This document shows positions 1,386 through 19,351 of a stretch of DNA of 49,269 nucleotides, piece after piece (the stretch's first letter is position 1; every line of letters starts with the position of its first letter). The stretch covers positions 1 to 49,269 of the forward strand of contig JAGBMX010000020.1 of assembly GCA_017634675.1 (NCBI GenBank). The letters are read 5' to 3'. A model generated the notes under the pieces. That model was given only the letters and a program-made list of their open reading frames with translations. It made no database searches and had not been told where the DNA came from. This stretch comes from Selenomonadaceae bacterium (GTDB lineage: Bacteria > Bacillota > Negativicutes > Selenomonadales > Selenomonadaceae). Position numbers and translations under genes: made by a program.

Positions 1386-1415
1386 TTGACAATTTTAACG
1401 AAATTATGGTATAGT
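1386..1415 (+). promoter_or_regulatory. Promoter of the glutamine synthetase leader
   Basis: TTGACA (1386-1391), 18-base spacer, TATAGT (1410-1415). The predicted transcript starts near 1422, inside the 5' arm of the first leader hairpin. The same -35/-10 pair and spacing recurs at 11963-11992. Confidence 0.7.
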
Positions 1416-1418
1416 GAA

Positions 1419-1530
1419 ATCGTCAACAACGGCGTTGACGATTGACGGTTTATCAATTTAAAACTAAATACTAAGGCAATGGCGCCACATGAACGTGATT
1501 TTTCTGCGTTCGTGTGGCTTTTTGTTTTAT
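1419..1530 (+). promoter_or_regulatory. Putative ANTAR-responsive antitermination leader with intrinsic terminator
   Basis: Hairpin P1 (1419-1442) has a perfect 9-bp stem, about 6 bp of it inside the predicted transcript, and the hexaloop AACGGC. A second short hairpin P2 (1475-1486) has a GGC/GCC stem and hexaloop AATGGC. Both loops carry A at position 1 and G at position 4, the known ANTAR-protein RNA signature. The 3' arm of P2 (1484-1486) is also the beginning of the terminator arm GCCACATGAACG (1484-1495), which pairs with 1507-1518 and is followed by T5GT4. P2 and terminator are thus mutually exclusive, as in ANTAR antitermination. The weak point is the 3-bp stem of P2 and a linker of about 30 bases. 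An ANTAR protein is encoded at 5142-6167. Confidence 0.6.
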
Positions 1531-1552: not shown

Positions 1553-3439
1553 ATGTCAAACATTGTTTACAAAATTCCCGCCAATTCCTCTAAAGAGGAG
1601 ATAAAAAATATTTTAGCCTCGCATCCCGAGATAAAGTTTGTGTCTTTAATGGGCATTGATATGGCGGGCAACGATACGGACGAAAAAATTCCCGCGCGGA
1701 TTTTCGTTAAAGATATGGACGATTTCTTTTCAGGCAGAGCCGTGCAGACAGACGGTTCCTCCGTTGTGCTTACGGGTATAGCCACTCTTAACAACGCAAA
1801 AGTCGATATGCCTATAGACGGCAGCGTAAACTGGTTCGTTGACTACAACGACGAGCATATAGACGCTGAAACAGGGCTTCCCGTAGGCACTCTCCGTATC
1901 CCCGCTTTTCTTATCCACGAGGGAAAACGAGTGGATTCAAGGGCTGTGCTAGCAGACACATTGGAATATGTGAAAAAAGAACTTTTGGATATATTCGGCA
2001 AAACTCCTTCAATATCTGGTTTATCCCGCATAAACGGCAGAAAGATTACGGATATTAACTTCACTTCCGCAACTGAGTTGGAATTTTGGGTAAAAACTCC
2101 TTTGGAAGAAGCCAACATCAAAGAAATGTCCGCTTCTCAGGTTATGCAGGAGCAATACTGGGAGCGCACTCACGGCGTTGTAAGAACCGCCCTTGAAAAA
2201 TGCGTGTTGGAACTTGAAAAATACGATTTGCAGGTTGAAATGGGTCATAAGGAAGTCGGCGGTCTGAAAGCGCAGATAGACGAAAGCGGGCGTATGCAGC
2301 ACGTTTGCGAGCAGATAGAAATTGACTGGAAATATGCGGACGCGCTGCAAGCCGCTGACAACGAACTTTTGGTTCGTACTCTTGTAAGGGAAATTTTCCG
2401 CCGCGAAGGGCTTGAGGTCAGTTTTAAAGCGAAACCCATGATAGGGCTTGCGGGCAACGGCGAACACACCCATATCGGAATGACGGCAGTTTTGGACGAC
2501 GGCTCTGCAATCAATCTTTTCTCCCCGGACGATTCTCATAAGGATTTTATGAGCGCGATAGGTTACGGCGCAATCATGGGACTTTTGAAGAATTACGAGG
2601 TAATAAATCCATTCGTCTCCGCCACGAACGATTCTCTTAATCGCTTAAAACCCGGCTTTGAAGCTCCCGTATGTATAGTCACTTCTTTAGGTCATACCCC
2701 CGAAATTCCCTCTCGTAACCGCACAATCTTAGCGGGACTTATCCGCGATCTCAACAACCCCTATGCAACGCGTTTCGAGCTTCGCGCGCCCAACCCATAC
2801 ACCAACACATATCTAGTCCTTGCGGCAATCTATTCCGCTGTTCTCGACGGCGTGAAAATAGCCGTACACCACACCACGGACGAACTTTTAGGCGAGCTTT
2901 CCAAAAAAGCCGGCGACGATGGCTTCTATCTTGAAAAGAACCGCGCCTACAGAAGCGAAGAAGACGTATTTGAAGATTATTCCGACGAGGAACGCAACCG
3001 TCTTTTCGGCACTCCTCCCGCGACCGTATGGGAAAACATGGAAAGTTTCGAGCTCTTCCCCGAAAAAACTTCCGTTATAACCGCAAGCGGCGCTATCCGC
3101 GAACAAATAATAAACGCTTTCAAAGCGGGCGCTCTCCTTCGTTGGAAAACCGAGCTAATCTCCCGCATTATCCCAGAAAACCGCGACGTCACCCGCAAGG
3201 CAAAAGAAATAGTTTCTTCCCACATGACGGATCAAGATGCCTACAACTGGAACAAAATCGCCGAACTCAAAGACTACCTCGCCAAAGACAGCATCGACCG
3301 CAAATCTCTCTTTACCCTCCTTACCTCCGCCCTTGAATCCGGCGACTACGCCGCCGCCTCCGGGATGCAGGTCGAAATGTACGAAAAAATGGAAGAACTA
3401 AAGGCGCTTTATGATTCTTATGTTAAAAATATGATTTAG
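1553..3439 (+). CDS. Large divergent glutamine synthetase
   Basis: Glutamine synthetase condenses glutamate and ammonia using ATP. The start at 1553 follows AAAGGA at the right spacing; an upstream in-frame ATG at 1514 lies inside the terminator and is not credible. The 628-residue product has an N-terminal beta-grasp region ending near VDYND, then the catalytic barrel with ELEFWVKTP, the HKEVGG segment, GNGEHTHIG (substrate and ATP site) and an RFELRAPNP strand holding the C-terminal catalytic Arg/Glu. It is longer than the classical GSI enzymes (about 440-470 aa), with roughly 150 extra residues at the C-terminus that are predicted helical and hydrophilic. I see no typical adenylylation-tyrosine loop. 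It sits next to nitrogen genes and behind a probable ANTAR leader. Substrate could in principle be a glutamine-synthetase-like alternative, but context favours true ammonia assimilation. Confidence 0.85.
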   Translation: MSNIVYKIPANSSKEEIKNILASHPEIKFVSLMGIDMAGNDTDEKIPARIFVKDMDDFFSGRAVQTDGSSVVLTGIATLNNAKVDMPIDGSVNWFVDYNDEHIDAETGLPVGTLRIPAFLIHEGKRVDSRAVLADTLEYVKKELLDIFGKTPSISGLSRINGRKITDINFTSATELEFWVKTPLEEANIKEMSASQVMQEQYWERTHGVVRTALEKCVLELEKYDLQVEMGHKEVGGLKAQIDESGRMQHVCEQIEIDWKYADALQAADNELLVRTLVREIFRREGLEVSFKAKPMIGLAGNGEHTHIGMTAVLDDGSAINLFSPDDSHKDFMSAIGYGAIMGLLKNYEVINPFVSATNDSLNRLKPGFEAPVCIVTSLGHTPEIPSRNRTILAGLIRDLNNPYATRFELRAPNPYTNTYLVLAAIYSAVLDGVKIAVHHTTDELLGELSKKAGDDGFYLEKNRAYRSEEDVFEDYSDEERNRLFGTPPATVWENMESFELFPEKTSVITASGAIREQIINAFKAGALLRWKTELISRIIPENRDVTRKAKEIVSSHMTDQDAYNWNKIAELKDYLAKDSIDRKSLFTLLTSALESGDYAAASGMQVEMYEKMEELKALYDSYVKNMI

Positions 3440-3445
3440 AGGTGA

Positions 3446-3530
3446 GTTCTTTCTTTTCTTTCTTCTCTTTTTTTGTAAAAAAAGAGAAGAAAGAAAAGAA
3501 ACAAAAGAAAGAAGAGAAAAAAACTTTAAT
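3446..3530 (-). repeat. Triplex-type Y1-Y2-R element, copy A
   Basis: Read on the minus strand: ATTAAAG, pyrimidine tract Y1, spacer GTTTC, mirror tract Y2, a short TAC turn, purine tract R, then GAAC. Y1 is an exact mirror of the distal part of Y2. Y1 matches R in parallel at 21 of 21 positions. It starts 7 bases after the glutamine synthetase stop codon and faces copy B head to head. Confidence 0.8.
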
Positions 3531-3582: not shown

Positions 3583-3676
3583 GTTAAAGTTTTTTCTCTC
3601 TCTCTTTTTCTTTGCTTCTTTCTTTTTCTCTCTCTCTTTTTTACAAAAAAGAGAGAGAGAAAAAGAAAGAAGGAAC
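3583..3676 (+). repeat. Triplex-type Y1-Y2-R element, copy B
   Basis: GTTAAAG, Y1 (3590-3613), spacer beginning GCTTC, Y2 to 3642, AC turn, R from 3645, ending AAGGAAC. Y2/R form an uninterrupted 28-bp hairpin stem. Y1 matches R in parallel at 24 of 24 positions, including seven C/G. It ends 24 bases before the dapL start. There is no T run after the hairpin on either strand, so it is not a standard terminator. Confidence 0.85.
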
Positions 3677-3700
3677 TAACAATAAAAAGGAAAAACAAAC

Positions 3701-4927
3701 ATGGCAAAAATAAATGAGAATTATTTGAAGCTGCCGGGGAGTTATCTTTTTTCGGAGATAGCTAAGAGAGTGGCGGCTTATAAGGAGGAGAATCCCGAGG
3801 CTGAAGTTATCAGTTTGGGGATAGGGGACGTTACGAGACCGTTGCCGAAAGTTTGCGTTGAGGCTATGACTCAGGCGGCGGATGAGATGGGGAATGTTAA
3901 GACATTTCGAGGTTACGGGCCTGAACAGGGTTATGATTTCTTGAGAGAAGTTATAGCGGAGCATAATTATAAAGCAAAGGGAATAGATATAAAGGCGGAA
4001 GAAATTTTCGTCAGCGACGGATCTAAGAGCGATTGCGGCAATATACAGGAGATTTTTAGCAAGGATTCAAAGGTTGCGTTGCCGGATCCCGTTTATCCCG
4101 TGTACCTTGATACGAACGTGATGGCGGGACGCACCGGGGCGCTTATGGGCGACGGGTATTTTGAAGGGGTGGAGTACCTTTCGGCAACGGAAAAGAATAA
4201 TTTTTCGCCGGATTTGCCGAGTGAAAAGATGGATTTAATCTATCTCTGTTCTCCGAATAATCCCACGGGTACGGCGCTATCGAGGGCAGCGCTTACAAAA
4301 TGGGTGGAATATGCAAGGGAAAACGACGCCGTTATCTTGTTTGACGCAGCGTATGCGGCTTATATTACGTCCGATGATGTGCCTAGGTCTGTTTATGAAA
4401 TACCCGGAGCAAAGGACGTTGCGATAGAGTTTCGTTCTTTTTCCAAAACGGCGGGTTTTACGGGTACAAGGTGCGGTTATGCCGTAATTCCGAAAAATCT
4501 TATGGGAACGGCTTCGGACGGAACAAAAGTTTCGCTTGCAAAGCTGTGGAATCGCCGACAAACCACAAAATTCAACGGCACGGCTTATATCGTGCAACGG
4601 GCGGCGGCGGCTGTTTATACCGAAGAAGGGCAAAAGCAGGTAAAGGAAAATATTGACTACTATATGGAAAACGCTCGCATTATAAGAGAAGGTTTGAAAA
4701 AAACCGGACTAAAAGCTTACGGAGGCGTTGACGCGCCTTATATTTGGGTGAAAACCGCAGAACCCTCGTGGGAATTTTTCGATAAACTTCTCACCAAGGC
4801 TCAGGTGGTAGGCACACCCGGCGCAGGTTTCGGACCGTGCGGCGAAAATTATTTTCGCTTGACGGCGTTTGGAGACCGTCAAAAAACTATCGAAGCTATA
4901 CGTCGCATTGTGTACAAACTGCATTAG
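3701..4927 (+). CDS. dapL: LL-diaminopimelate aminotransferase
   Basis: DapL is a PLP enzyme that makes LL-2,6-diaminopimelate from tetrahydrodipicolinate and glutamate in one step, feeding lysine and peptidoglycan synthesis. The 408-residue protein starts [14 protein letters not shown] and contains [31 protein letters not shown] and the PLP-lysine motif [15 protein letters not shown], all characteristic of the DapL branch of class I aminotransferases. The ATG at 3701 follows AAAAAGGA. Upstream lies triplex-type element B with no clear promoter between, so expression may come from further upstream or from a promoter I could not see. It uses glutamate, the product of the synthase encoded downstream. 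Confidence 0.93.
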
Positions 4928-4998: not shown

Positions 4999-5090
4999 AT
5001 TAAAGTTTTTTCTTTATCTTTTTTCTTTGTTACTTTCTTTTTTCTCTTTCTTTTTTACAAAAAAGAAAGAGAAAAAAGAAAGTAAGAAAC
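4999..5090 (+). repeat. Triplex-type Y1-Y2-R element, copy C
   Basis: ATTAAAG, Y1 (5006-5028), spacer GTTAC, Y2, AC turn, R from 5059, ending GAAAGTAAGAAAC. Y2/R pair over 27 bp without mismatch. Y1 matches R in parallel at 22 of 23 positions. The TTAC/GTAA pair here replaces TTC/GAA of other copies, a compensatory change. It lies between the dapL terminator and the promoter of the ANTAR gene. Confidence 0.83.
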
Positions 5091-5092: not shown

Positions 5093-5121
5093 TATACAAT
5101 CACAAAATTTACATTTATAAT
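5093..5121 (+). promoter_or_regulatory. Promoter of the ANTAR regulator gene
   Basis: TATACA (5093-5098), 17-base spacer, TATAAT (5116-5121). It is immediately 3' of element C, so that element lies upstream of, not within, this transcript. Confidence 0.55.
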
Positions 5122-5141
5122 ATCAATAGGGAGGTATGATT

Positions 5142-6167
5142 ATGACAACAAATGCAAAATTGGAAAAAAGCGAATTTGCCGTAATGTGTAAGCGGGAAAC
5201 CTCCCTAACTCCCGTGCAGGTCGAGCTTTTGGGGGAAATTTTGCGAAGTTTGCCTTTTGCTGCCGATTTGACTCTTGCGGAGATTGCTTGTTTTGCGCCG
5301 CAGAAAAAGGCGGGGGAATATAAAAATGTGTTTGAAGTAAGCCCGAATATTTCGCCGCTTGCTTCTTCCGATGGGGCGATAGGGAATAAAGCGACGCAGA
5401 TTGCGCTGTTAAACGAAACTTTCCGAACGGGAAATTCCCTTAATCAATGGGAAGAATCGGAAGACGGTTCTGTTGGGATAAGAAGTTTTTGCATTAAGGA
5501 CGGCGCATCTCCCATAGCCGTTATTTTGCTGTCTTATCGCTTAATGCTCTCAATGACGGATTTTACGCATCTGATACACGCAGTTCAAGCGGTTATTTCC
5601 GAAGGGCGGAAGTTTAATGCGGGTATGTTCGAAAGATTGACTAAGGAAGACGGGGTGATGATAGCGGATAATTTTCATCGCATCGTCTTTGCGGATGAAA
5701 TCACGCGGCATATCTATCGCAAGATGGGAACGCTTAATCTTTTGGGGCGGCTGTTAAACGAAAATTTGACGGATTCGGTGGAACGGGAGGTTTTATCGAA
5801 AAAAGCTCCTTGGGAAAAGGAAATGTACGCGGGAGAATATATTTTTCGTGAAAGACGCTTGGATTTTTCGCCGAAATCTCGTATCGGACACATTATCATA
5901 ACGAGGGATATTACGGAGGAAAAACGCCACCAGCAGGATTTAAAGGTGCAAGCCGCTTTAGAAAAACGCATAGCGGAGCTTGAGGAAGAATTGGCGGGCA
6001 TAAAAGATTCCCTGGAGTCCCGCAAACTAATCGACCGCGCCAAGGGAATTTTAATGGATAAGGAAAACCTGACGGAAGACGAAAGTTATCGCCGAATCAG
6101 AACGATGGCGATGATGAACAGATTGACAATAAAAGAGGTTGCGTCACAAATTATAAAAAACAAATAA
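5142..6167 (+). CDS. ANTAR-domain antitermination regulator with GAF/PAS-like sensor region
   Basis: ANTAR proteins bind paired hexaloop hairpins in nascent mRNA and stop terminator formation. The start at 5142 is chosen over 5136 because AGGGAGG (5128-5134) is 7 bases from it but only 1 base from the other. The 341-residue protein has an N-terminal region of about 150 residues resembling the GAF-like sensor of PdtaS-type proteins, a PAS-like region around residues 160-255 (ending IIITRDITEEKR), a coiled coil and a C-terminal ANTAR domain (RKLIDRAKGILMDKENLTED... ASQII). No phospho-acceptor receiver domain or kinase domain is present, so it would sense a ligand directly. Its likely target is the glutamine synthetase leader at 1419-1530. 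Signal unknown; nitrogen status is inferred from neighbours. Confidence 0.85.
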   Translation: MTTNAKLEKSEFAVMCKRETSLTPVQVELLGEILRSLPFAADLTLAEIACFAPQKKAGEYKNVFEVSPNISPLASSDGAIGNKATQIALLNETFRTGNSLNQWEESEDGSVGIRSFCIKDGASPIAVILLSYRLMLSMTDFTHLIHAVQAVISEGRKFNAGMFERLTKEDGVMIADNFHRIVFADEITRHIYRKMGTLNLLGRLLNENLTDSVEREVLSKKAPWEKEMYAGEYIFRERRLDFSPKSRIGHIIITRDITEEKRHQQDLKVQAALEKRIAELEEELAGIKDSLESRKLIDRAKGILMDKENLTEDESYRRIRTMAMMNRLTIKEVASQIIKNK

Positions 6168-6279: not shown

Positions 6280-6630
6280 ATGATGGCGCTTAATTTTGTG
6301 GAAGAGAAGCATAAGAAGATGCTTATAGCGAGGACGAAGAAGTGTACGGTAAGGTTGGGGGACGTTAGCGGAGAGTTTCCCGAAAATTCTATTGTATGGA
6401 TAACGGCGGGGGAGAAGGGACAGCAGAAACAGAAATTGTTTACCGCTTTTTTGGATAAGGTGAGGGTAAAGACGATGGGGACGCTGACTTCCAAGGATTT
6501 GGCGGATCAGAACCCGGAGATAAGCACGAGGGAAGAACTTATCGCAGATTTTGAGAGGATTTATAAACGGCGTATTCTTATGGAGGATACGGTTACGGTG
6601 ATATATTTTACGGAAGTTATCGGATTGTGA
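6280..6630 (+). CDS. Small ASCH/PUA-like protein preceding glutamate synthase
   Basis: A 116-residue protein of no certain function. The segment around KKCTVRLGDVSGEF and the beta-rich layout ending TVTVIYFTEVIG resemble ASCH/PUA-like RNA-binding folds; this is a fold-level impression, not a firm assignment. The start could be ATG 6280 or 6283; a GGGGG tract lies just upstream. It is 16 bases ahead of the glutaminase subunit gene and on the same strand, so it is probably the first gene of the glutamate synthase operon. Given the position it might modulate the enzyme or its mRNA, but nothing in the sequence shows this. Confidence 0.6.
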   Translation: MMALNFVEEKHKKMLIARTKKCTVRLGDVSGEFPENSIVWITAGEKGQQKQKLFTAFLDKVRVKTMGTLTSKDLADQNPEISTREELIADFERIYKRRILMEDTVTVIYFTEVIGL

Positions 6631-6646
6631 TAAGGATGGTGGAGGA

Positions 6647-7753
6647 ATGTGCAGGATAGGCTCGATTAAGAGTAAGAAACCCGTAGCGCCTTCCATGGCG
6701 TTAAGGCTTATGCTTCCTCAGCAGGAGGGGCATGACAATTCGGGGTTCGCTATGGTTATGCAGGATCTTTACGGCATTTTTTCGGCGCATAAGGATAAGC
6801 CGTTGCTTTCGATGGCGTGTACCCAAAAGGGTTCGCGACTGGTGGAAGATTATATGGACGCCCATAACTTTTCGCCGGTGATGGAACTTATACCCGTGCC
6901 GAATAAAAAGCCGAATTTGGATATAAAGGCTATGCCTTATTATATTTTTAGAGTGTACGATTATCCCGAGGACGTGACTTTTCAAACGGAAAAGCAAAGG
7001 GAAGATTTATTGTTAGATACAAGGCTTGCGATTAGAAAGATTTTGTCGGAGAGCGGGCAGGGTTATGTCTATTCCTTTTGGCCGGATGTGTTGACGCTGA
7101 AAGAAATCGGCGATCCGAGGGATATTGCCACTTATTTCAGGCTTTGGGAGGACGATGGGACGTTAACTGCCAAGTCAATCGTAGCGCAGTGCCGTCAAAA
7201 TACGAATTACGACATTGTGCGCTATGCGGCGCATCCTTTTTTCTTGCAGGGATATACCCTTTGCGCCAACGGCGAGAATACTTTTTACACGAAGAATAAG
7301 GAATTTCAAAAATCCTTGCATAGAGGCTATATCGGTTTTGAATCGGATTCGCAGTGTTTTTTGAATACGCTTCACTACGTCCATCACGAACTAAAATGGC
7401 CGCTTCCTTATTATAAGCACGTTATTACGCCGCTACCATTTGAAGAAATGGAGGAGAGAGAGGATAAAGATGTGTTGACCGCCATAAGGGAGTCTTTGGC
7501 GCATTTGGAGATTAACGGGCCGAATACGATAATCGGCGTGTTGCCTGACGGGAATATGATAACCTGTTGCGATTCAAAGAAACTTCGCCCTGTTGTGGTG
7601 GGCAAGGACGAAAATATGGTGGTTATTTCTTCGGAGGTATGCGGTATCAACGAGATTTTGCCGGATAGGGACGAAACGAAGGACATTTACCCCAACGAAA
7701 GAGAGATAGTGGTTATCGACGGGGATTTGGAGGTGAAAAGATGGAAGCAGTAA
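6647..7753 (+). CDS. Glutamate synthase, glutaminase (class II amidotransferase) subunit
   Basis: This subunit hydrolyses glutamine to supply ammonia to the synthase. It begins MCRIGS, so removal of Met exposes the N-terminal nucleophile Cys typical of class II glutamine amidotransferases, followed by the QEGHDNSGFA segment around residues 26-35. At 368 aa it corresponds to the separate amidotransferase polypeptide of the split, archaeal-type glutamate synthase rather than the large fused bacterial alpha chain. The RBS is GGTGGAGG just upstream. Its end overlaps the start of the FMN subunit gene by 13 bases, which suggests translational coupling and 1:1 assembly. Confidence 0.88.
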   Translation: MCRIGSIKSKKPVAPSMALRLMLPQQEGHDNSGFAMVMQDLYGIFSAHKDKPLLSMACTQKGSRLVEDYMDAHNFSPVMELIPVPNKKPNLDIKAMPYYIFRVYDYPEDVTFQTEKQREDLLLDTRLAIRKILSESGQGYVYSFWPDVLTLKEIGDPRDIATYFRLWEDDGTLTAKSIVAQCRQNTNYDIVRYAAHPFFLQGYTLCANGENTFYTKNKEFQKSLHRGYIGFESDSQCFLNTLHYVHHELKWPLPYYKHVITPLPFEEMEEREDKDVLTAIRESLAHLEINGPNTIIGVLPDGNMITCCDSKKLRPVVVGKDENMVVISSEVCGINEILPDRDETKDIYPNEREIVVIDGDLEVKRWKQ

Positions 7754-9372
7754 AGACGCAGGACGTTGGCGTAAACGATCTACCTTGGAAAATCGAATAC
7801 CACGCCGAACGCTGTACCATGTGCGGCAGTTGCGTCGCAGGTTGCACATTTAAGGCGATAAAAGTGGAAGTTCAGAAAAAATCCATGACTCATTCCGAAG
7901 GCAGCGTTCCTACTCCCGTTCATACACATATCGCAATTCCCATAATTAAACAAGTGGCGAGTTTGACGGATTTTTGCAGAGGTTGCGGAATGTGCGAAAA
8001 AGTTTGTCCCAACAACGCCATTCACCCCGTCAGAAATCCCGACAGTAGGAAAACTCTGCTGTCAAGGGACGCAGGGCCAATTAAGCGGGGCGGGCGCACG
8101 AATTTAAATGCGCAGAGAACTCTTGACAGCATAATCGTTGGGCGCATTTCGCAGATGACAGACCCGTCTTTGGATTCGGCAAGACACACTTTCGATATTC
8201 GTTCGCCTTTTGGCAGGGTGCTTTCGTCTAAGGAACTTCCCTTTGAAGTTGTGGATGGGAAATTGGTGCAAAAAGGCAAAACTCCGCCCGTACATTTTAT
8301 CTATCCCTTAATTTTTTCCGATATGTCCATAGGCGCGCTTTCAACTAGGGCGTGGGAGGCGGTTGCCCTTGCGGTCGGGTATTTGAACGAAAAATGCAAT
8401 ATTCCCATAAGAATGAGTTCCGGCGAAGGCGGTATGCCCGGCAATCTCTTAAAAAGCGATTATCTTAAATATTTTATAATCCAGATTGCTTCGGGGCATT
8501 TCGGTTGGAACCGCATAATAAAAGCTATCCCCCACATGGTGACTGATCCTGCGGGAATTTTGATAAAAATAGGTCAGGGCGCAAAGCCCGGCGACGGGGG
8601 ACTTCTCCCAAGCGCGAAGGTTGCGGAACACATTCAGGCGATTCGCGGAGTTCCTAAGGCTACGTTATCTTCGCCGCCCAATCATCAGGGATTGTATTCC
8701 ATAGAGGAAAGCGTGCAGAAAATGCACCTTTCCATGAACGCCGCCTTTGGTTTTAGGGTACCCGTAGCGATAAAATGCGCGGCGTCTTCGACTTCGGTTT
8801 CCGTGTATAATAATCTCTTAAGAGATCCCTATAAAATCTGCGGCGGCTTTTTCATCGACGGCATACAGGGCGGCACGGGAGCGGCTAACGAAGTTTCGTT
8901 GGATCATACGGGGCATCCCGTTGTGTCAAAGATAAGGGATTGTTACTTAGCGGCGGTGAATCAGGGTTTGCAGGGGCAAATTCCGCTTTACGGCGGCGGC
9001 GGTATCGGCATGACGGGCAACGCTGCGGCGGACGCTTTTAAGATGATGTGCCTCGGCGCTAACGGCGTGTTTGTGGGAAAGATTTTAATTCAGCTTTTGG
9101 GTTGCGTAGGCAACGAACAGGGACGTTGCAACGCTTGCAATACGGGCAAATGTCCGACGGGTATCTGTACTCAAGACCCGAGACTCGTAAAGCGTCTTGA
9201 TATAGATAAAGGGGCGCAGAAAATCGTTGATTATGTCTTAGCTTTCGATTCGGAGTTAAAGAAATTGATGGCGCCCATCGGCAACAGTTCGCTACCAATC
9301 GGCAGAAGCGATGCGCTTGTTACCACGGACAAGGCAATATCGGATAAACTTGGGATTCAATATGCGTGTTAG
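7741..9372 (+). CDS. Glutamate synthase, FMN-binding subunit with N-terminal ferredoxin domain
   Basis: This is the catalytic core that reductively transfers ammonia to 2-oxoglutarate, making glutamate. The first 100 residues hold two [4Fe-4S] motifs (CTMCGSCVAGC and CRGCGMCEKVCP). The rest is the FMN barrel of glutamate synthases, with MSSGEGGMPGN, the GQGAKPGDGG loop, GFFIDGIQGGTGAA and a cysteine cluster (GRCNACNTGKCPTGIC) suited to the [3Fe-4S] centre. At 543 aa it is the stand-alone archaeal-type subunit. RBS GGAGGTG lies at the expected distance. It overlaps the glutaminase gene and is followed after 13 bases by the third subunit gene. Confidence 0.92.
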   Translation: MEAVKTQDVGVNDLPWKIEYHAERCTMCGSCVAGCTFKAIKVEVQKKSMTHSEGSVPTPVHTHIAIPIIKQVASLTDFCRGCGMCEKVCPNNAIHPVRNPDSRKTLLSRDAGPIKRGGRTNLNAQRTLDSIIVGRISQMTDPSLDSARHTFDIRSPFGRVLSSKELPFEVVDGKLVQKGKTPPVHFIYPLIFSDMSIGALSTRAWEAVALAVGYLNEKCNIPIRMSSGEGGMPGNLLKSDYLKYFIIQIASGHFGWNRIIKAIPHMVTDPAGILIKIGQGAKPGDGGLLPSAKVAEHIQAIRGVPKATLSSPPNHQGLYSIEESVQKMHLSMNAAFGFRVPVAIKCAASSTSVSVYNNLLRDPYKICGGFFIDGIQGGTGAANEVSLDHTGHPVVSKIRDCYLAAVNQGLQGQIPLYGGGGIGMTGNAAADAFKMMCLGANGVFVGKILIQLLGCVGNEQGRCNACNTGKCPTGICTQDPRLVKRLDIDKGAQKIVDYVLAFDSELKKLMAPIGNSSLPIGRSDALVTTDKAISDKLGIQYAC

Positions 9373-9385
9373 GGGGTGAAGGCAA

Positions 9386-11722
9386 ATGTTAAAGATAGAA
9401 ACGATGAAAGACAACGAGCGTATGTCTACGCAGGATTTGTTGTTAAAGATAGAAGACGCAGTAAAAAACGGCGAAACTGAATTTGATATAGCGGCGTCCG
9501 GTCAGCACGATATCGGCGGCCCGTTATGGAACGCAGAGGGGAAAAAATTATTTTTTCATGTGACTAACGCAGGTCAAAGAGTCGGCTCCATGTGTTTGCC
9601 GGGAACGGAAATCGTGGTTGACGAATCCGCGTCCGCCGACGTGGGTTGGCTTAATTCCGGCGGCGTTATAACCGTGCGTGGTGATGCGGGGGATACGGCG
9701 GGGCATTGTTCTTCCGGCGGAAAAATTTTCATCGGCGGCAGAGCGGGGACTCGCACGGGTTCGCTTATGAAACACGATCCCCTTTACGAAGAACCCGAAC
9801 TTTGGGTACTAAAGAACGTCGGTTCATTCTCCTTTGAATTTATGGGCGGCGGCAAGGCGGTTGTCTGCGGCGAGGATGCGGAAGAATTTGCTTCAGTTTT
9901 GGGCGAACGCGCCTGCGTCGGTATGGTGGGCGGCGTGGTCTATGTTCGCGGAAAAATCGGCTCTTATCCGAAAAATATCGCTTGCTCGGAGCTTGACGAA
10001 AACGATATAAACTTTTTATCCGGCGGCATGGGCGAATTTTTGGAAAAGATAGGCAGAACGGAACTTAGAGAAAAACTTTCCCGCTGGCAGGAATGGCGTA
10101 AATTACAACCCGCTCAACAAAATGCCGCGGGAAAAACCGACGACGTTAAATCTTTTCACCAAAAGGAATGGGTCAAGGGAGGAATTTTCGCCGACGTAGC
10201 CAAGGATGATTTTGAGGTACACAATACAATCAGCACGGGACTTTATCGCTTGCGTGTGCCTACATGGGAAAACGCAAAATATGCCGCGCCCTGCGAATTT
10301 AGTTGCCCTACGGGAATACCGACGGAACAGCGTTACGCGCTTTTGCGGGCGGGAAAAGACGAGGAAGCGTTCCAGCTGGAACTTGATTACACCCCGTTCC
10401 CCGGTTCGGTATGCGGTTCCGTTTGTCCCAACCCCTGCATGGAAGGCTGCACCAGAGGAACGATTGACGAACCTATTCAAATAGGAGAGTTGGGATTTAA
10501 GAGTTCCTTCCTACCGGTGAAACCTCCATCCGTAAAAACCGGCAAAAAAATATCCGTTATAGGCGGCGGCGTGGCGGGATTATCCGCGGCGTGGCAGCTT
10601 GCCCGCAAGGGACACGACGTCACGGTTTACGACGAGGACGAGCATATCGGCGGCAAATTGGAACAGGTCATACCAAGAGGTCGTCTTTCCCACGAACTTT
10701 TGAAGGCTGAGTTAAAACGCATCGAAAGCGTGGGAGTAAAATTCGTTTCCTCGTATAAAGTCGATAAGGAAAAATTCGCTTCAATCAGAGAAACGAGCGA
10801 TGCGGTTATAGTTGCGACGGGCGGCACGAAGTCCCGCTTCTTCCCGTGGGAAGGCAAAGAACATCTCACCATGGGGCTTCAATATCTAAAAGCCATAAAC
10901 CGAGGCGAAAAACCGAAAACAGGCAAACGGGTAGTAGTCATAGGCGCGGGCAACAGCGGCATGGACACCTGCCGAGGGGCTTACGAGATGGGCGCCCAAA
11001 CCGTAATAGCGGTGGACGTGCAAAAGCCTGCGGCGTTTCAACATGAAATTGATTATATCGAAAGTTTGGGCGGTAAAATAGTTTGGCCGTTCTTTACGCA
11101 GAAAATCACACCCGAAGGGATTTACGGCAACGACGGCAGGTTTATTCCCGCCGATCAGGTGATTGTTTCCATTGGCGAAGAACCTGTTTTGGATTTCCTG
11201 CCCGACGACGAGAACATTCAAAAATTCAGGGGAAGCTGGCTTGTTCCCAACAAGGACAAGAGCGTAACCTCCAAAGTATTTGCGGCGGGCGACGTAATAA
11301 AGCCGGGTCGCCTCACCGACGCTATAGGCGACGGACGCAGAACGGCTTGGTATGTGGATTTGTTCGTTATGGGCAAAAGCATAGAGCCTTTCCCCGAAAA
11401 GCAAAAAATCCCCGCCGAAAGAATCGGCAAGGCGTATTTTGACAAATGCCACCATTGCAATTTGGGCGACGCCGCAGACGACAAAGTTCGTTGCGTGAGC
11501 TGCGGCACTTGCAGAGATTGCAAAATGTGTCTTGAATCCTGCCCCGAAAAAGCAATCAGCCGCATAGAAAAAGCGGACGGTTCATGGGAATATGTATCCG
11601 ATCCCAACCGCTGCATAGGCTGCGGTATGTGCGCCGGGGTTTGTCCCTGCGGCGTGTGGAGCATTGACGATAATCCGGAAGAGATAAAGATGTATACTAC
11701 GGGCGAAAAAGTTGCGGGATAG
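9386..11722 (+). CDS. Fused GXGXG domain / NAD(P)H-dependent oxidoreductase / ferredoxin subunit of glutamate synthase
   Basis: A 778-residue fusion. Residues about 1-250 are the GXGXG beta-helix normally at the C-terminus of the glutamate synthase alpha chain. Residues about 295-700 match the GltD-type small subunit: N-terminal cysteine clusters (CEFSCPTGIP, CGSVCPNPCMEGC), a first dinucleotide fold VIGGGVAGLSAAWQL and a second VVIGAGNSGMDTC. The C-terminus adds two ferredoxin motifs (CVSCGTCRDCKMCLESCP, CIGCGMCAGVCPCG). The chain thus links electron input, several Fe-S centres and the structural domain that completes the synthase. RBS GGGGGTGAAGG precedes the ATG. It is the last gene of the operon, followed by a strong terminator. 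Electron donor (NADPH, NADH or ferredoxin) cannot be decided from sequence alone. Confidence 0.88.
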   Translation: MLKIETMKDNERMSTQDLLLKIEDAVKNGETEFDIAASGQHDIGGPLWNAEGKKLFFHVTNAGQRVGSMCLPGTEIVVDESASADVGWLNSGGVITVRGDAGDTAGHCSSGGKIFIGGRAGTRTGSLMKHDPLYEEPELWVLKNVGSFSFEFMGGGKAVVCGEDAEEFASVLGERACVGMVGGVVYVRGKIGSYPKNIACSELDENDINFLSGGMGEFLEKIGRTELREKLSRWQEWRKLQPAQQNAAGKTDDVKSFHQKEWVKGGIFADVAKDDFEVHNTISTGLYRLRVPTWENAKYAAPCEFSCPTGIPTEQRYALLRAGKDEEAFQLELDYTPFPGSVCGSVCPNPCMEGCTRGTIDEPIQIGELGFKSSFLPVKPPSVKTGKKISVIGGGVAGLSAAWQLARKGHDVTVYDEDEHIGGKLEQVIPRGRLSHELLKAELKRIESVGVKFVSSYKVDKEKFASIRETSDAVIVATGGTKSRFFPWEGKEHLTMGLQYLKAINRGEKPKTGKRVVVIGAGNSGMDTCRGAYEMGAQTVIAVDVQKPAAFQHEIDYIESLGGKIVWPFFTQKITPEGIYGNDGRFIPADQVIVSIGEEPVLDFLPDDENIQKFRGSWLVPNKDKSVTSKVFAAGDVIKPGRLTDAIGDGRRTAWYVDLFVMGKSIEPFPEKQKIPAERIGKAYFDKCHHCNLGDAADDKVRCVSCGTCRDCKMCLESCPEKAISRIEKADGSWEYVSDPNRCIGCGMCAGVCPCGVWSIDDNPEEIKMYTTGEKVAG

Positions 11723-12274: not shown

Positions 12275-14443
12275 ATGGATATAAATAACTGCTATCAAAA
12301 ATTATGTTTCATGGAAAACATAGCATCACAATATGTTTATGGTAGGAATTCTGCGGATATTTTGCGAAAAATGCGCGAAGATATCTTTGATAAAGTTTAT
12401 CGAGTTGCTTTTATAGGGGAATTTAATCGCGGAAAATCCAGTTTAATTAATGCTCTGTTGGGTTCAGATGTTTTGCCTATGGACATTTTGCCCAGTACCG
12501 CCACTGTTATCCGCATGATTTACGGAAATGAGAGAAAGATTCATCTGTATTATACGGATGGAAGCGAAGCTGAAATTGAAAACCCGGAAAAATTACAGAA
12601 AGTCGCAACTAAACGGGACGATATTAGCGAACAAATCGCTGCAACCATTAGGGAGATAGTCATAGAATATCCTTCCCAACTATGCAGAGAAAATATTCAG
12701 ATTCTAGATACTCCGGGGTTAAACGAAAACACAAATATGACGGAAATCACAAAAAAAGTGCTTAAAGATATAGACGCCGCCGTTATCGTAGTTTCGGTCG
12801 AATTACTTTTAAGTCAGACGGAACGTGATTTAATTTTGGATATGATTGCGGAGGACGGAATTCGTCATCTGATTTTTGCCGTAACTTTTATTGATACGTT
12901 AGATGGTGAAACTGAAAAAGATCAAATGATATCCTTTATTGCCAAACAATTACGTGAAAATACATTAGAAGATGCAAAACGACGTTTTGCGGGGAAAGAT
13001 GTTTTGATAGAAAAAGCCGAAAAATTGTTAAGTTCTCCAAGTGTTTTTGGCGTTTCGGCGTTAGAGGCAAGACGCGCTTTTCAAAAGGGCGATAGGAATC
13101 TCTTAGAACGCTCGCGACTGCCGAAATTTAAAGAAAATCTTCTCGCTTTTTTGACAAGCTCTCAAACGGCGGATTTACCGATAAAAACACTCAAATATTT
13201 AGAGTGGATGATAGAGGAACTTCCCAAGTGGCACAAAGAGGAAAAACAAATTCTTAAAGAAAGCCTGAGAACAAAAGCAACTGATAAACGACTAAACGTT
13301 TTTAGCGAAAGCGAGCTAAAAAACAACGTAGATTCGGCTCTTAAAATATTTGACCAATTATTGACCTTGAGTTTGGGACTGACTCAAAAATATGTCAATA
13401 TTTTCTGCAAAACACACATACTAAATTCGTATTTGTCGCATATCGGAGAAGTAAACGCTACGGATCATTTGGACTTTAAAATATCTAACGCAATGCAAAA
13501 AGCGGAGAAAGAGTTCTTAGATGAAATCAATCAAAAAAGAGATGTTTGGGAAAAGACGTTGCGCCGATATATGAACAATGTGGAAATAGGCTTTCAAGAT
13601 TGTCGTCAAGCGGCTAAGCTTGATACTAAATCTCTTGCCGATAAGCTTCTTACTTTTCATGAGAAAAACAGCTTGCCGATGTTTTCATGGAAACAAGATC
13701 CAACGCCGCCCAAAGGCTGTGACGACCACTTGTCACATATATACGCCGCAATTAACTCATCTACGGATTATTTTTGGGAAAATATAAAAAATTGTATAGA
13801 AAATTGGAAAGAAGAACTAAATACTCAACTTGGAGAAGATACAAAAAAAATACGCTCAAGAAATTCCAAAGATTTAAACTCTAAATTGGAGGCTTTACCG
13901 TTCCTTTATAAACAACAACTAGGAACTCTTTGGGCCATACAAGACGAGCTTGATCCCAATGCTTACAAACAAAGAAAAACGGATATTCAAGATGAGTATG
14001 AAGAAGATATTCCCCAAAAAATCACTAGAATCATAAGTGAATTGCAAGGTGAATATGGCAGTCTTCCCAATATTTTTTTCAGGAATGGAACAGATAGGTC
14101 AAGGAATAAAATAATGGGTGCTATCAAAGGCTATGCGAACGACGTGAAATATGACGACGTGATTTTTTGCTATGACGATACGTTCTTTGGTTCAAGCGAC
14201 AACGGATTTTTGATGACTTGCGAAAAACTTTGCAGCATGAATTATTTAGAATCTTCAAAATCTATACCGTTAACGGATATCGAAACCATAGATCCCGCGG
14301 AGAATAAATTTAACACACTCTTCATTAACGCTTCAAGCGATAAAAACATTTATATAAATGTGTCTAGTTATGCCGGCAACAAAAATACCTGTGACAAGTT
14401 AATAGAACTTATGTTCACGGTAATTGGAGAATTTGCCATATAA
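12275..14443 (+). CDS. Dynamin-like GTPase 1
   Basis: A 722-residue bacterial dynamin-like protein. The GTPase domain is N-terminal: P-loop GEFNRGKSS (48-56), switch I threonine in LPSTATV (about 72-78), DTPGL (145-149). The G4 position reads TFID (204-207) rather than N/TKxD, keeping the Asp but not the Asn/Lys, so nucleotide specificity may be altered. The remainder is long, charged and mostly helical, without an obvious membrane paddle. Dynamin-family proteins couple GTP hydrolysis to membrane binding or remodelling and in bacteria often occur as adjacent pairs that act together (for example LeoA with LeoBC). It is the first of three such genes here. The RBS is weak (GGTGAAG). Function in this organism is unknown. 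Confidence 0.8.
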   Translation: MDINNCYQKLCFMENIASQYVYGRNSADILRKMREDIFDKVYRVAFIGEFNRGKSSLINALLGSDVLPMDILPSTATVIRMIYGNERKIHLYYTDGSEAEIENPEKLQKVATKRDDISEQIAATIREIVIEYPSQLCRENIQILDTPGLNENTNMTEITKKVLKDIDAAVIVVSVELLLSQTERDLILDMIAEDGIRHLIFAVTFIDTLDGETEKDQMISFIAKQLRENTLEDAKRRFAGKDVLIEKAEKLLSSPSVFGVSALEARRAFQKGDRNLLERSRLPKFKENLLAFLTSSQTADLPIKTLKYLEWMIEELPKWHKEEKQILKESLRTKATDKRLNVFSESELKNNVDSALKIFDQLLTLSLGLTQKYVNIFCKTHILNSYLSHIGEVNATDHLDFKISNAMQKAEKEFLDEINQKRDVWEKTLRRYMNNVEIGFQDCRQAAKLDTKSLADKLLTFHEKNSLPMFSWKQDPTPPKGCDDHLSHIYAAINSSTDYFWENIKNCIENWKEELNTQLGEDTKKIRSRNSKDLNSKLEALPFLYKQQLGTLWAIQDELDPNAYKQRKTDIQDEYEEDIPQKITRIISELQGEYGSLPNIFFRNGTDRSRNKIMGAIKGYANDVKYDDVIFCYDDTFFGSSDNGFLMTCEKLCSMNYLESSKSIPLTDIETIDPAENKFNTLFINASSDKNIYINVSSYAGNKNTCDKLIELMFTVIGEFAI

Positions 14444-14480
14444 TTGCGGCAATATTATTTTTATAAAGGAGAGGATATTT

Positions 14481-16556
14481 ATGTCGGAGGAATACAGAAG
14501 TTATCAGGCAATGGCTCGTCAAACCTTGCAGGGGATAGCGGATATTTCAAAAATTTGCGAGAAGTTAGGGCTTGAAAAGTCGAATGAAAATCTTTCCCGC
14601 GCTAAAGAAAGACTACAATCCAAAGAATTTACCGTAGGTATTTTGGGCGAATTTAAACGCGGAAAAAGCGCCGTTATCAATTCTTTGTTGGGTAAAAAAA
14701 TTGTGCCGGAAGATCCTCTCCCTTGTTCCGCCACGCTTAACTATATACGCTATGACTCAACTCCCGGCGCAGTGGTTAATTACAAAGACGGACGTAAAGA
14801 AACCGTAAGTGTTGACAATTTAAAAGATTACGTTACCAAGCTTACAGACGAGTCCGCCGCTGTTGCAGAAAACATACAAGATGTGGTTGTGCAATATCCC
14901 TGCAAGTTCTGTAAAGACGGCGCGCAAATAGTAGATACTCCCGGTCTTAACGATGAAGAAACAATGACCAATGTGACGGAAAGCGTCGTCCCGTATTTAG
15001 ACGCAATACTTTTAGTGGTGGTGCCGGGAAGTCCTTTCAGCGAATCGGAGGCTAATTTTGTCCGTACAAAAATCATGACCAGCGATATTGGCAGAATGGT
15101 GGTTGTGATAAACAAGATGGATCAAATTGACGAAGAAGATCGCGCAAGAGTAATAGAAGGCATAAGAAAAAAATTTGGCGCAAGCGTATTAGAAAAAATA
15201 GCGGATACATATGGTAAAGATTCAAACGAATATCTAGACGCCAAAAGTAAGGTAGGGGAGCTAAAGGTAATCGGAGTTTCTGCCAAACAAGCTTTTAAAG
15301 CTAAACAGGAAGCTTCCGCAGAAAAACTTGCCGAAAGCAACTGGCAAGAGTTGGAAGATTCTCTGTCCTGGATATTAAATGAAGAACGCGGCAGTATAGA
15401 GCTTATATCGCCCGTGAATACTTTACTATCCACGGCAAAAGAAGCGCACTCTACCATAGAAATGCGGCTTTCTGCTTCAAATATGGAAGAGGAAAAGCTA
15501 AATGAGCTTACCGAGAAGGGTATTGTAGAAGCTCAGCATAGCCGCGAAATGATGGAAGAGGAGATACAAAAACTCAAAAAGGGATCGGAAAATATTTATA
15601 ACGAGCTTCTTCCCGAAGTGCAATCTATTTATTCTTCTACCCAACAAGAATTGCTGGAATATGTGAATAACGTTGTCATCAATCCGGCTGATATTAGCAA
15701 TAATTCGGGCATCAAAAGAACATCCGATAAAATTGCCAAGGAGCTAAACGATGAATTGAATAAAAAACTTTCTGCCGGCGTCGAAGTTTTGGGTATGAAA
15801 GTCCAACAGAGAGTAAATGAGGATTTAAGCAAATTCAGCGACAAGGTTGATGAAATATTCGGCGGCATGGTAGATGTTCAAAAGGAGATTAGTGCGGGAG
15901 AAACGGGTTCATCTTTTACTTGGGGAATAGCGGCCTTTGATACGCTCACCAACATCAGCGGTCTTTTGGGTATGGGATTCTTTGGTTTAGGCGGGCTTAT
16001 TTCAGGGTTCCGCGCAAACGGCGTAAAAGGCGCTTTGGTCGGAGGCTTCACCGGATTCGTATCGGGATATGCGGCCTCTTACGCTGTAGTTGCCGCAGGG
16101 GCAAGCGTGATTGGTCTTCCCATTCTCATTCCCGCTCTTGCCGTAGGCGGGGTAATCTCCACTTTTGGCGGAAAATATTTTGTAAATAAGATATTTGGCG
16201 AATCCATAGGGCAAAGGAATATGGACAAAGTGCGCAATCAGTTGAAAGATTCCGTGATAAGTTCCATGAACCAAGTGCAAAAGGAAATGGTAATAGAAAA
16301 ATGGTTGCGCCAAACCGCCCGCGACGCATATAATCATGTAGTGCAAAAGCTAGATACAGAGACTAAAAACGCTATCACCGATTTTGAACATACCATGACT
16401 CAGTTGCGTTTGGATAAGCAAAAGAAGCAGTCCGAGATAGACGCTATTCGTGAAGATTTAAAAGACTGGAGTCAACAACTGCAACTTATAAATGAGAATA
16501 TTGCGCCTGTTAAAGCAAAATTAATTAAGGCTATGGGAGGTGAACAAGGCGAATGA
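14481..16556 (+). CDS. Dynamin-like GTPase 2 with hydrophobic membrane region
   Basis: A 691-residue dynamin-like protein. The ATG at 14481 with AAAGGAGAGG upstream is preferred over 14424, which overlaps the previous gene. The GTPase motifs are complete: GEFKRGKS (56-63), PCSAT (about 81-85), DTPGL (152-156) and a canonical G4 NKMD (211-214). Residues about 340-480 are helical and charged. Residues about 481-565 are glycine-rich and strongly hydrophobic with two or three possible membrane-inserting hairpins, the position where bacterial dynamins carry a membrane paddle. The C-terminus (about 600-690) is again coiled-coil-like. It is the most canonical of the three GTPases and the likely membrane anchor of the set. 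Its stop overlaps the next start (ATGA). Confidence 0.85.
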   Translation: MSEEYRSYQAMARQTLQGIADISKICEKLGLEKSNENLSRAKERLQSKEFTVGILGEFKRGKSAVINSLLGKKIVPEDPLPCSATLNYIRYDSTPGAVVNYKDGRKETVSVDNLKDYVTKLTDESAAVAENIQDVVVQYPCKFCKDGAQIVDTPGLNDEETMTNVTESVVPYLDAILLVVVPGSPFSESEANFVRTKIMTSDIGRMVVVINKMDQIDEEDRARVIEGIRKKFGASVLEKIADTYGKDSNEYLDAKSKVGELKVIGVSAKQAFKAKQEASAEKLAESNWQELEDSLSWILNEERGSIELISPVNTLLSTAKEAHSTIEMRLSASNMEEEKLNELTEKGIVEAQHSREMMEEEIQKLKKGSENIYNELLPEVQSIYSSTQQELLEYVNNVVINPADISNNSGIKRTSDKIAKELNDELNKKLSAGVEVLGMKVQQRVNEDLSKFSDKVDEIFGGMVDVQKEISAGETGSSFTWGIAAFDTLTNISGLLGMGFFGLGGLISGFRANGVKGALVGGFTGFVSGYAASYAVVAAGASVIGLPILIPALAVGGVISTFGGKYFVNKIFGESIGQRNMDKVRNQLKDSVISSMNQVQKEMVIEKWLRQTARDAYNHVVQKLDTETKNAITDFEHTMTQLRLDKQKKQSEIDAIREDLKDWSQQLQLINENIAPVKAKLIKAMGGEQGE

Positions 16557-17545
16557 TTATGACAAACGAAAAAAATTATAAATCGCCCTTAGACTCTATT
16601 GATGTCAGCTTTTCTAATTACGTTGCAATGCGCAAGCGAGAAGAGAGTCTTCACATGGAAGACGGCGTGCCTGATTATGCCTTTGATCTTGACTATGAAT
16701 TGCGACGGCGTATGGAGCAAATTCCGCATTTTACGGGACTTTGCAAGAAGATAAGCGCCACCATAGAAACGAGAGCTATACAAATTTACAATCAGCAAGC
16801 TGTTGCAGTCAGTCCGGAACAGTATGGAGAAATTTATAGCATGGGGACGGATTGCGCCAAACGGCTTGGCATTGGTACGCCAAATATTTTTGTTTACCCC
16901 AGTCCACAGATCAACGCATTTACCTGCGCCTCCGACACAATCAGCCCAATGATTGTTCTATACAGCGGTATCGTTGACCGTTTGAAGCCCGCAGAACTTA
17001 AATGCGTAATCGCCCACGAGTGCGGACACATTCATAATGAACACACTATATATCAAAATGTTGTAGGAGAAATTCTAAACAGTGGTTCGGGTATTTTAGG
17101 CTTTTTTCTCTCTGTCGCAAATATGGCTTTGATGCAGTTTTGGACTAGAGCATGTGAAATCACCGCCGACAGGGCGGCGGTGATTTGCGCGGATAATGTG
17201 GAGGATGCCGTTAACGTGCAAAAAAAGCTTTTTTCAGGTGCCACGTTTAACGCAGAATTTCAAGAAAATCTAAACCTTGATGCGCTTAAAGCTCAACTTG
17301 ACGTCACTCTCAATAATCCTTCGCGACTTTACGAAATAATGAGCGACCATCCATCGGGTCTGCGTCGCATATTTTGTATGAAAGAATTTGAAGAATGCGA
17401 GATTTATTATAAGTGGCGCACGGAAAAAAAGAAGCCGGGAAGCATAGGTCGCAACAAGGAAGAGACGGACGAACGTTGTCGAAAACTGGTAAATATTTGG
17501 AATAACGCTCAAGCCAAAAACTATCGATATGAAGAAAAATCGTAA
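16553..17545 (+). CDS. M48-family zinc metallopeptidase inside the dynamin cluster
   Basis: A 330-residue peptidase. HECGH (155-159) is the zinc-binding and catalytic motif, and E202 in CEITADRAA is the likely third zinc ligand, both as in M48 enzymes (HtpX/Oma1/Ste24 group). There is no N-terminal signal and at most one short hydrophobic stretch near residues 178-196, so the protein is probably cytoplasmic or peripherally membrane-bound, unlike HtpX. RBS GGAGGTG lies inside the end of GTPase 2, and the ATGA overlap implies coupled translation, so peptidase and GTPase 2 are probably made together. It lies between two GTPase genes; processing of a GTPase or of a membrane substrate is a guess. 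Confidence 0.85.
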   Translation: MIMTNEKNYKSPLDSIDVSFSNYVAMRKREESLHMEDGVPDYAFDLDYELRRRMEQIPHFTGLCKKISATIETRAIQIYNQQAVAVSPEQYGEIYSMGTDCAKRLGIGTPNIFVYPSPQINAFTCASDTISPMIVLYSGIVDRLKPAELKCVIAHECGHIHNEHTIYQNVVGEILNSGSGILGFFLSVANMALMQFWTRACEITADRAAVICADNVEDAVNVQKKLFSGATFNAEFQENLNLDALKAQLDVTLNNPSRLYEIMSDHPSGLRRIFCMKEFEECEIYYKWRTEKKKPGSIGRNKEETDERCRKLVNIWNNAQAKNYRYEEKS

Positions 17546-17572
17546 CAATGTCATAAAAAGGAGTAGTATGCT

Positions 17573-19351
17573 ATGGATATAGAAGATCGCATCACTTATT
17601 CGCAAGAAGAAATGCTCCGCAAATTGGATTCCGCCTTGGAGGAAATGCGTGTTTTTCGCTATGATGTTAGATACAGGCGTTTAGGGGATGCCTTTATGGA
17701 TAAATGTCGTCAATCTTTGGAAAACATAGAAAAACGCAGAGCCAATCCATTCACGTTGGTTGTGGTGGGAGAGTTTAAAAGGGGCAAGTCTTCCCTTATT
17801 AACGCTCTCTTACAAGAGAACGTAGTCACTACCGATGTAACCCCCGAAACCGTGACAATAAATCGCGTTTCATACGGTTTGCCCGCTAACGAAGCAATTC
17901 TATCCGGGGGTAGACGGGTAAAGCTTGCCAACGAAGAATTAAAGCGAGATATGTTGGAAAAAGTGTTGTCAAATTTTGACGAACCTATCACAGAACTTGA
18001 AATAAGACGAGAAAACGAATTTTTACAAAAAGTTACCATCATAGACACGCCCGGTCTTGACGATGCTTTAAAGGATTTTTCGGATCATGTGGCGGAGGCT
18101 CTCATGCAGGCTGATGCCGTAATTTATGTGTTTAACTCTTCATACCCTATATCCATGACCGAGCAATTTTTTTTGCGCTCCGCTATTATCCCCGGTCAAT
18201 TCACCGATTTGTTTCTGATTGGAAATTTTGCCGACAATTTAGAGACTACGGAAACAGTAAAACGTATGCGGGAAACCGTACAAAAACGATTGCAGGGGCT
18301 TTTACCTAATGCAAAAATCTACATGGTTAGTGCTCTTGATGAGCTTTCGCGTATTCAAAATCTGAAGCGTCCTCTACCGGATATGGCTTCTGCTTTGGAA
18401 GAAGAATTTTCTTCATTGCGGCAAGATTTGGAAAAAACAGTGGAGGAAAAGGCCGAGACATGCGTATTAGATAGGGTACAGAGGCTTTCGCTATCTATGA
18501 TCGACGAATTGGAACAAGAACTTGACAGCATAAGTCAAGGTCTTGTCATGGACGCAAAGAAACGAGAAGAAGTTTTAAGTAAACTGCAAAAAGAAAAAGA
18601 ATCCGAGCTTAATAAACAAAAAGCAACGTTAGAGGAAGTTAAAAATCGAATAAAAAGCATGGAAGAAGAAGGGTTTTGTTGGATGCGTGATTTTTTAGAT
18701 CGCATCGCCAACGAAACAGAAAACCTTTTTGCGGAAAGTGGAGATGTTTTGCGCAAATATTACGAATATTATTGCGTAGACCTTATAGAGCGGGCAATTA
18801 CCGCTTGCGTTGATTATCATAGGGAACAACTCTACGATTTTTTGGATGAAATTAATTCCTCTCATACAGAGAAAATTGTGGATTTAACTTTCGGCAAACC
18901 AAATTATCAAATTCGTTTTAAGTTGGATAATAAGGTTTGGACAAAAGGCGATAACGTTGGTTTTGTAGTTTCCTATTTTAAAGGAGGCGGCGGCAGTTTT
19001 TTGGGAGCAGTCGCAACTATGGCGGTAGACGCAGTATCCGGCTATCTAAGAGAACGCGAAACCGTAACAAAAACGCCGGATCTCATTGAAGAAATCAGAC
19101 GCAAATTGTACACCGTCTACGATTCTGTGGAAAAGAATCTGCGAAAAATGTACCATTCTTTAGGAAACAAACTTGAAATTGCCTTAACGGAATATTATGA
19201 AACGGAAATTACAAATAAGGAACATTATGTAGAACAGGCTGTCAGCGTGTCAAACAAAGAAGACGCAGTTAAGAAAGAAATTGCGTTACTGGTGGACGAG
19301 GCAAGGAGTACTCTACAAAAAGTGCGTTCGGCAGCTGAAATGCAGCAATAA
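17573..19351 (+). CDS. Dynamin-like GTPase 3
   Basis: A 592-residue dynamin-like protein. P-loop GEFKRGKSS (66-74), VTPETVT switch I region (about 89-95), DTPGL (158-162), and a G4 of NFAD (218-221), which keeps Asn and Asp but has Phe in place of Lys. A long charged coiled coil follows (about residues 275-370). A short glycine-rich hydrophobic segment (KGGGGSFLGAVATMAVDAV) near residue 465-483 could dip into a membrane. The RBS AAAAAGGAG fits the ATG at 17573. It is shorter than GTPases 1 and 2 and about equally distant from both by eye. A three-GTPase set is unusual, since bacterial dynamins normally come singly or in pairs. Confidence 0.83.
   Translation: MDIEDRITYSQEEMLRKLDSALEEMRVFRYDVRYRRLGDAFMDKCRQSLENIEKRRANPFTLVVVGEFKRGKSSLINALLQENVVTTDVTPETVTINRVSYGLPANEAILSGGRRVKLANEELKRDMLEKVLSNFDEPITELEIRRENEFLQKVTIIDTPGLDDALKDFSDHVAEALMQADAVIYVFNSSYPISMTEQFFLRSAIIPGQFTDLFLIGNFADNLETTETVKRMRETVQKRLQGLLPNAKIYMVSALDELSRIQNLKRPLPDMASALEEEFSSLRQDLEKTVEEKAETCVLDRVQRLSLSMIDELEQELDSISQGLVMDAKKREEVLSKLQKEKESELNKQKATLEEVKNRIKSMEEEGFCWMRDFLDRIANETENLFAESGDVLRKYYEYYCVDLIERAITACVDYHREQLYDFLDEINSSHTEKIVDLTFGKPNYQIRFKLDNKVWTKGDNVGFVVSYFKGGGGSFLGAVATMAVDAVSGYLRERETVTKTPDLIEEIRRKLYTVYDSVEKNLRKMYHSLGNKLEIALTEYYETEITNKEHYVEQAVSVSNKEDAVKKEIALLVDEARSTLQKVRSAAEMQQ

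Follow-up and report, generated by a model that had tools for sequence, protein, structure and literature searches.

Textbook ANTAR systems need two RNA hairpins. In the natural targets of EutV, the linker between the hairpins is 5-12 nt; lengthening it to 14 nt drastically reduced induction (PMC3369931), and an extension of 20 nt abolished antitermination (PMC8934654). The 2022 structure paper on EutV and RNA reported that the dimer binds one hexaloop at a time, the minimal binding motif being a single hexaloop; E. faecalis nonetheless requires both hairpins, and the paper left the function of single hexaloops to be determined (PMC8934654).

The window (the whole stretch of 49,269 nt analysed here) belongs to a Selenomonadaceae-type genome (G000) of 2.6 Mb in 157 contigs, which is 85% complete. 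The initial annotation had described two hairpins with the hexaloops AACGGC (P1) and AATGGC (P2) before an intrinsic terminator, the second sharing bases with the terminator arm. The positions of both hairpins were confirmed, as shown in Table 1. The hexaloops are alike in carrying A at position 1 and G at position 4 (A1 and G4), the stems are at least 3 bp long, and the GCC that closes P2 opens the 5' arm of the terminator. The promoter had 11 of 12 consensus matches. At the DNA level, P1 is a 10-bp stem (1418-1427/1434-1443) around its loop (1428-1433), and since the predicted transcription start lies near 1422, the transcribed stem would be trimmed to 6 bp; the trimming that had been proposed thus agrees with the promoter position. 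The leader fold gave a z of -4.3, with none of 200 shuffles equally good, and a P1 whose stem reached 6 bp or more around an ANNG hexaloop arose by chance in 39 of 20,000 shuffles of the window leader and 54 of 20,000 shuffles of the leader from the same genus (G002). One point was absent from the initial annotation: the linker between P1 and P2 is far longer than the 5-12 nt of characterised EutV targets.

Table 1. Features of the leader, the synthetase gene and the linked genes in the window
Feature	Position	Strand	Remark
Sigma-70-type promoter, TTGACA (1386-1391), 18 nt, TATAGT (1410-1415)	1386-1415	+	Short spacing from -10 box to P2 also in relatives
P1 hairpin as transcribed, GTCAAC-AACGGC-GTTGAC	1422-1439	+	Compensatory changes in G002 and G291
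P1-P2 linker, 35 nt (31 nt counted from the full 10-bp stem)	1440-1474	+	
P2 antiterminator hairpin (putative): GGC 1475-1477, loop AATGGC 1478-1483, GCC 1484-1486	1475-1486	+	
Intrinsic terminator: 1484-1518, then T-run 1519-1523	1484-1523	+	
628-aa glutamine synthetase homologue (Gln-synt_C)	1553-3439	+	Predicted controlled gene
LL-diaminopimelate aminotransferase gene	3701-4927	+	Between synthetase and ANTAR genes
One-component regulator: GAF_PdtaS (residues 17-133), PAS-like fold (172-258), helix (260-310) into ANTAR (290-340)	5136-6167	+	
Conserved 116-aa ORF and glutamate synthase-type genes	6280-11722	+	Linked to ANTAR gene in relatives
Amidotransferase-like gene (by position)	6647-7753	+	Glutamate synthase-type group
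FMN domain gene	7741-9372	+	Glutamate synthase-type group
GXGXG/oxidoreductase gene	9380-11722	+	Glutamate synthase-type group

The synthetase homologue scored 130 bits for the catalytic domain, solved structures matched mainly residues 251-440, and the NCBIfam cut-offs for type I and type III were not reached. The protein was classified as divergent because of the missed cut-offs and the restricted structure matches, and a type III label was dropped since its score was below the cut-off.

Sequences preceding the orthologous synthetase gene were gathered, oriented and compared across Negativicutes. P2 followed by the terminator was found in 36 leaders from many families of the class, with G4 in all 36 and A1 in 32 (the other four had G). 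An alignment of 29 sequences (28 synthetase leaders and an amtB leader) showed 96% of the cells in the terminator helix as paired; 8 of the helix's 10 pairs carried double changes, and its covariation was 0.727, against 0.279 for shuffled sequences and 0.08-0.21 for slid controls. P2 was nearly invariant, with a compensatory change from a G-C to a U-A pair in two distant families. No such leader was found at the synthetase paralogues of the same genomes (G000 C54, G001 C273, G002 C58 and G003 C1). The initial annotation would have been refuted by hairpin loops not conserved upstream of the gene in relatives, and this outcome was not seen: P2 and the terminator are conserved across Negativicutes, and P1 is conserved in three genomes with a fused ANTAR protein only, which makes it lineage-specific. 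An ordinary constitutive attenuator, or a terminator of the upstream gene, with hexaloops present by chance, would fit a P2 stem of only 3 bp and the commonness of intrinsic terminators; it is nevertheless a very improbable explanation, as P2 is conserved beyond the needs of a terminator and across many families, the leader has its own promoter, the upstream gene has a separate terminator (1305-1349), and the leader co-occurs with ANTAR genes.

This co-occurrence was surveyed in 380 Negativicutes genomes. Within Selenomonadaceae, the leader (at E <= 0.001) was present in 89 of the 101 genomes with an ANTAR gene and in 5 of the 88 genomes without one; the tables were counted by hand, and some genera are over-represented, so that the p-value overstates the independence of these genomes. 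Of the four genomes without ANTAR in a first set of family relatives, three had no leader and one (G031) kept it. Twenty-three synthetase leaders were used to build a covariance model, R1, and the search of the genome that had been suggested as a check returned only two P2-containing matches in the window genome, the synthetase leader and one further full-length site before amtB (425 bits for PF00909). The amtB leader is P2-only and has the promoter TTGACA-17-TAGAAT. A simple search of the genome with the 12-nt P2 motif was set aside as evidence, since 10 matches against 11 in the reversed control are uninformative alone; only two of the motif matches had a matching terminator. In relatives, R1 found leaders before amtB, amino-acid transporters, a glutamate synthase amidotransferase-like gene and various other genes, and also at the kinase/receiver-ANTAR operons themselves and at ethanolamine (eut)-type loci beside a second ANTAR gene. 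The eut-type loci, where gene names come from the first predicted ORF, were absent from the training of R1 and served as a positive control.

Some leaders carried additional hairpins. Two tandem P2-terminator units lie before a single amtB gene in G048 (C60:6103-6226, L240), and the amtB leader of the window genome (L195 1581-1625) has a second terminator-like hairpin and T-run between the P2 terminator and the start codon. Outside Negativicutes, the leaders of nifH-like genes (L278 and L279, in G462 and G602) seemingly contain two successive hexaloop-terminator units.

The window ANTAR gene was the only one found in its genome, and each g1 genome has one. A second ANTAR gene could be missing because the genome is 85% complete, and the leader is present with no detected ANTAR gene in G031 and G256; both observations would suit a different controller, be it a riboswitch, another RNA-binding protein or a further ANTAR protein encoded in the portion absent from the assembly. 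Such a controller is nonetheless improbable given the single ANTAR gene of each g1 genome, the strong co-occurrence, hexaloop rules that fit ANTAR targets, and the Rfam search of the window and leader, which gave nothing at the gathering cut-off (weak sub-threshold matches were dismissed). The initial annotation had paired the linked sensor with this leader as inference. The single ANTAR gene, the co-occurrence, the R1 matches at eut-type ANTAR loci and the kept EutV contacts strengthened that pairing, and control of the synthetase leader by the linked ANTAR protein is a well supported prediction from sequence comparison.

The one-component GAF/PAS-like ANTAR protein that had been noted lies, as claimed, 1.7 kb downstream of the synthetase gene. 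Pfam analysis showed GAF_PdtaS and ANTAR (PF03861, 66 bits) domains, with neither a kinase nor a receiver in the chain. The AlphaFold model (mean pLDDT 87) contained GAF-like and PAS-like domains and a single helix (260-310) that leads from the PAS-like domain into ANTAR. The sensor region of the PdtaS kinase (2ykf/2ykh) was the closest solved structure and the top match by both fold and sequence; the ANTAR part matched 1s8n, and the RNA-binding LOV receptor 6hmj was also among the fold matches. By alignment, six of seven RNA contacts of EutV are identical, R142, K143, K149, E160, Y164 and M172 corresponding to R296, K297, K303, E314, Y318 and M326, and K147 corresponds to R301.

Two separate proteins correspond to the regulator in most relatives: a kinase of about 480 aa, to which regulator residues 12-280 align, and a receiver-ANTAR protein of about 195 aa, to which residues 276-341 align. 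The two parts of the fusion meet at the expected start of the kinase H-box (kinase SAVIQEI|HHRVKNN; window QAALEKRI|AELEEEL). A separate kinase and receiver-ANTAR protein of the EutVW type was absent from the window genome and present in G292 and most relatives. The fused form was found in 6 of the 380 Negativicutes genomes, in three genera, and genus g27 holds both states, with tandem kinase and receiver-ANTAR genes in G292 and the fused form in G028 and G291. A single deletion of about 1 kb in a kinase/receiver-ANTAR operon would give such a fusion. In the synthetase tree, the fused group was not one clean clade; since this tree resolves the group weakly, a single origin of the fusion is likely rather than established. 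Five other genomes (G003, G004, G027, G032 and G033) have a receiver-ANTAR gene without a detected kinase, and the phospho-acceptor aspartate motif seems lost from the receiver-ANTAR proteins of G004 and G033 (L183 and L184). Viral contigs searched with the ANTAR protein gave no match.

Near-perfect polypyrimidine/polypurine hairpins with arms of 28-51 nt and a 2-nt gap occupy the intergenic positions 3447-3504, 3592-3695 and 5026-5089, and a similar hairpin before the second synthetase gene (G000:C54) suggests a repeated element of the window genome. Co-transcription of the synthetase and ANTAR genes is uncertain because these long hairpins lie between them, and a promoter-like site was found at 5093-5121, upstream of the ANTAR gene. 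The 116-aa protein (6280-6630) had no Pfam or NCBIfam match; it was 100% identical in G001 and 73-88% in other relatives, and its ORF, wherever seen, is flanked by the ANTAR gene on one side and the glutamate synthase genes on the other. Further along the window (12275-19351), three dynamin-family GTPase genes follow one another, an M48 peptidase gene separating the last two.

A strict scan of 77 Negativicutes leaders gave a convincing P1 only in two g1 synthetase leaders, with other matches at chance level; allowing one G-U pair added G291 and brought the count to three leaders. All three genomes (G000, G002 and G291) encode the fused protein, and all six P1 pairs form in all three. Three compensatory pairs were seen across these genomes, a number reached by 12 of 500 shuffles in a comparison of three sequences only. 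The fused-protein genomes G028 and G029 have synthetase leaders without P1. An apparent P1 in G040 was rejected since it overlaps the -10 box, and a weak P1 in G027 was rejected with a 4-bp stem lying 51 nt from P2. The linkers in the three P1 genomes are 31-41 nt long, outside the short range of 5-12 nt. A spacer hairpin that might shorten the linker appeared in the folds of all three genomes and was discarded, since its advantage over shuffled sequence was weak in G002 and absent in G000 and G291.

Promoters could be placed in 57 of the 77 leaders, where the median distance from the end of the -10 box to P2 is 24 nt. By the predicted starts, only about 17 nt of RNA would precede P2, which leaves too little room for a usual P1 and linker. 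Outside Negativicutes in the same phylum, the same scan recovered a classical P1 at 2-7 nt from P2 in G461, G527, G575 and G553, and the scan can therefore find P1; several leaders there also had none. These results point, on balance, to Negativicutes ANTAR proteins controlling nitrogen genes through P2-only leaders, with one small lineage having fused its two-component controller and P1 occurring only there. P1 would then be inessential for antitermination, as P2-only leaders leave no room for a recruitment hairpin.

P1 could instead be a DNA operator or a hairpin that stabilises the 5' end, P2 being the only ANTAR element. The inverted repeat straddles the predicted start, is missing from nearly every other leader in Negativicutes and likewise from that of amtB in the window genome, and is separated from P2 by a linker too long by EutV rules; its central palindrome is also nearly identical between G000 and G002, as an operator would be. 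However, G291 keeps the position, the 6-bp stem and the A1/G4 hexaloop despite a different sequence, through compensatory changes, the loop AACGGC resembles the Clostridia-type P1 loop AACGGT, and the motif occurs exactly once in the window genome. An operator or stabiliser is thus the less likely role for P1, though with a real share of the probability.

Taken together, the leader is likely an ANTAR-controlled attenuator with the fused sensor as its controller. By default, the terminator would fold and the transcript would stop before the synthetase gene. An active fused sensor would bind the P2 hexaloop through its ANTAR dimer, with P1 assisting as a 5' recruitment site; the 5' arm of the terminator would be held in P2, and polymerase could continue into the synthetase gene. 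The P2-only amtB leader elsewhere in the genome is probably another target of this protein. We propose that the regulator retains only the sensor of a PdtaS/EutW-like histidine kinase and the ANTAR domain of its receiver-ANTAR partner, so that the signal would pass by a continuous helix and not by phosphate. The signal is probably nitrogen limitation, in view of the predicted targets, glutamine synthetase and an ammonium transporter. The class-wide single-hexaloop leaders, with their short spacing between promoter and hairpin and their nitrogen-gene theme, would serve as natural test cases for the role of single hexaloops. The fused sensor offers a natural example of a two-component system that has dispensed with the phosphorelay and retained its sensor and RNA output; close relatives include both states, and the leaders outline a nitrogen regulon predicted for Selenomonadaceae of rumen and gut.

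Compared with known systems, the locus shares A1/G4 hexaloops, a P2 overlapping an intrinsic terminator and the ANTAR RNA-contact residues with EutV/EutW of Enterococcus faecalis (PMC3369931, PMC8934654), but has no receiver or kinase, has a linker of 31-41 nt against 5-12 nt, and is predicted to target glutamine synthetase and amtB. NasR of Klebsiella, a one-component NIT-ANTAR antiterminator (PMC7496416), likewise has a sensor joined directly to ANTAR and acts on a nitrogen-assimilation leader, whereas the window sensor is a GAF_PdtaS and PAS module from a histidine kinase, not NIT, and the regulator appears to have been derived from a kinase-regulator pair within one bacterial family. PAL of Nakamurella (PAS-LOV-ANTAR; PMC7496416) is also a PAS-containing one-component ANTAR protein, but it is a light receptor with a different sensor and is not known as a terminator-controlling nitrogen regulator. 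The sensor region and ANTAR part of the window regulator match PdtaS/PdtaR of Mycobacterium tuberculosis; there, unlike in the fusion, kinase and receiver domains are present and the system is split between two proteins. ANTAR-controlled glutamine/glutamate synthase leaders of the same target-gene class were reported in PMC3369931; those searches were built on the dual-hairpin motif, whereas the Negativicutes set described here is almost entirely single-hexaloop.
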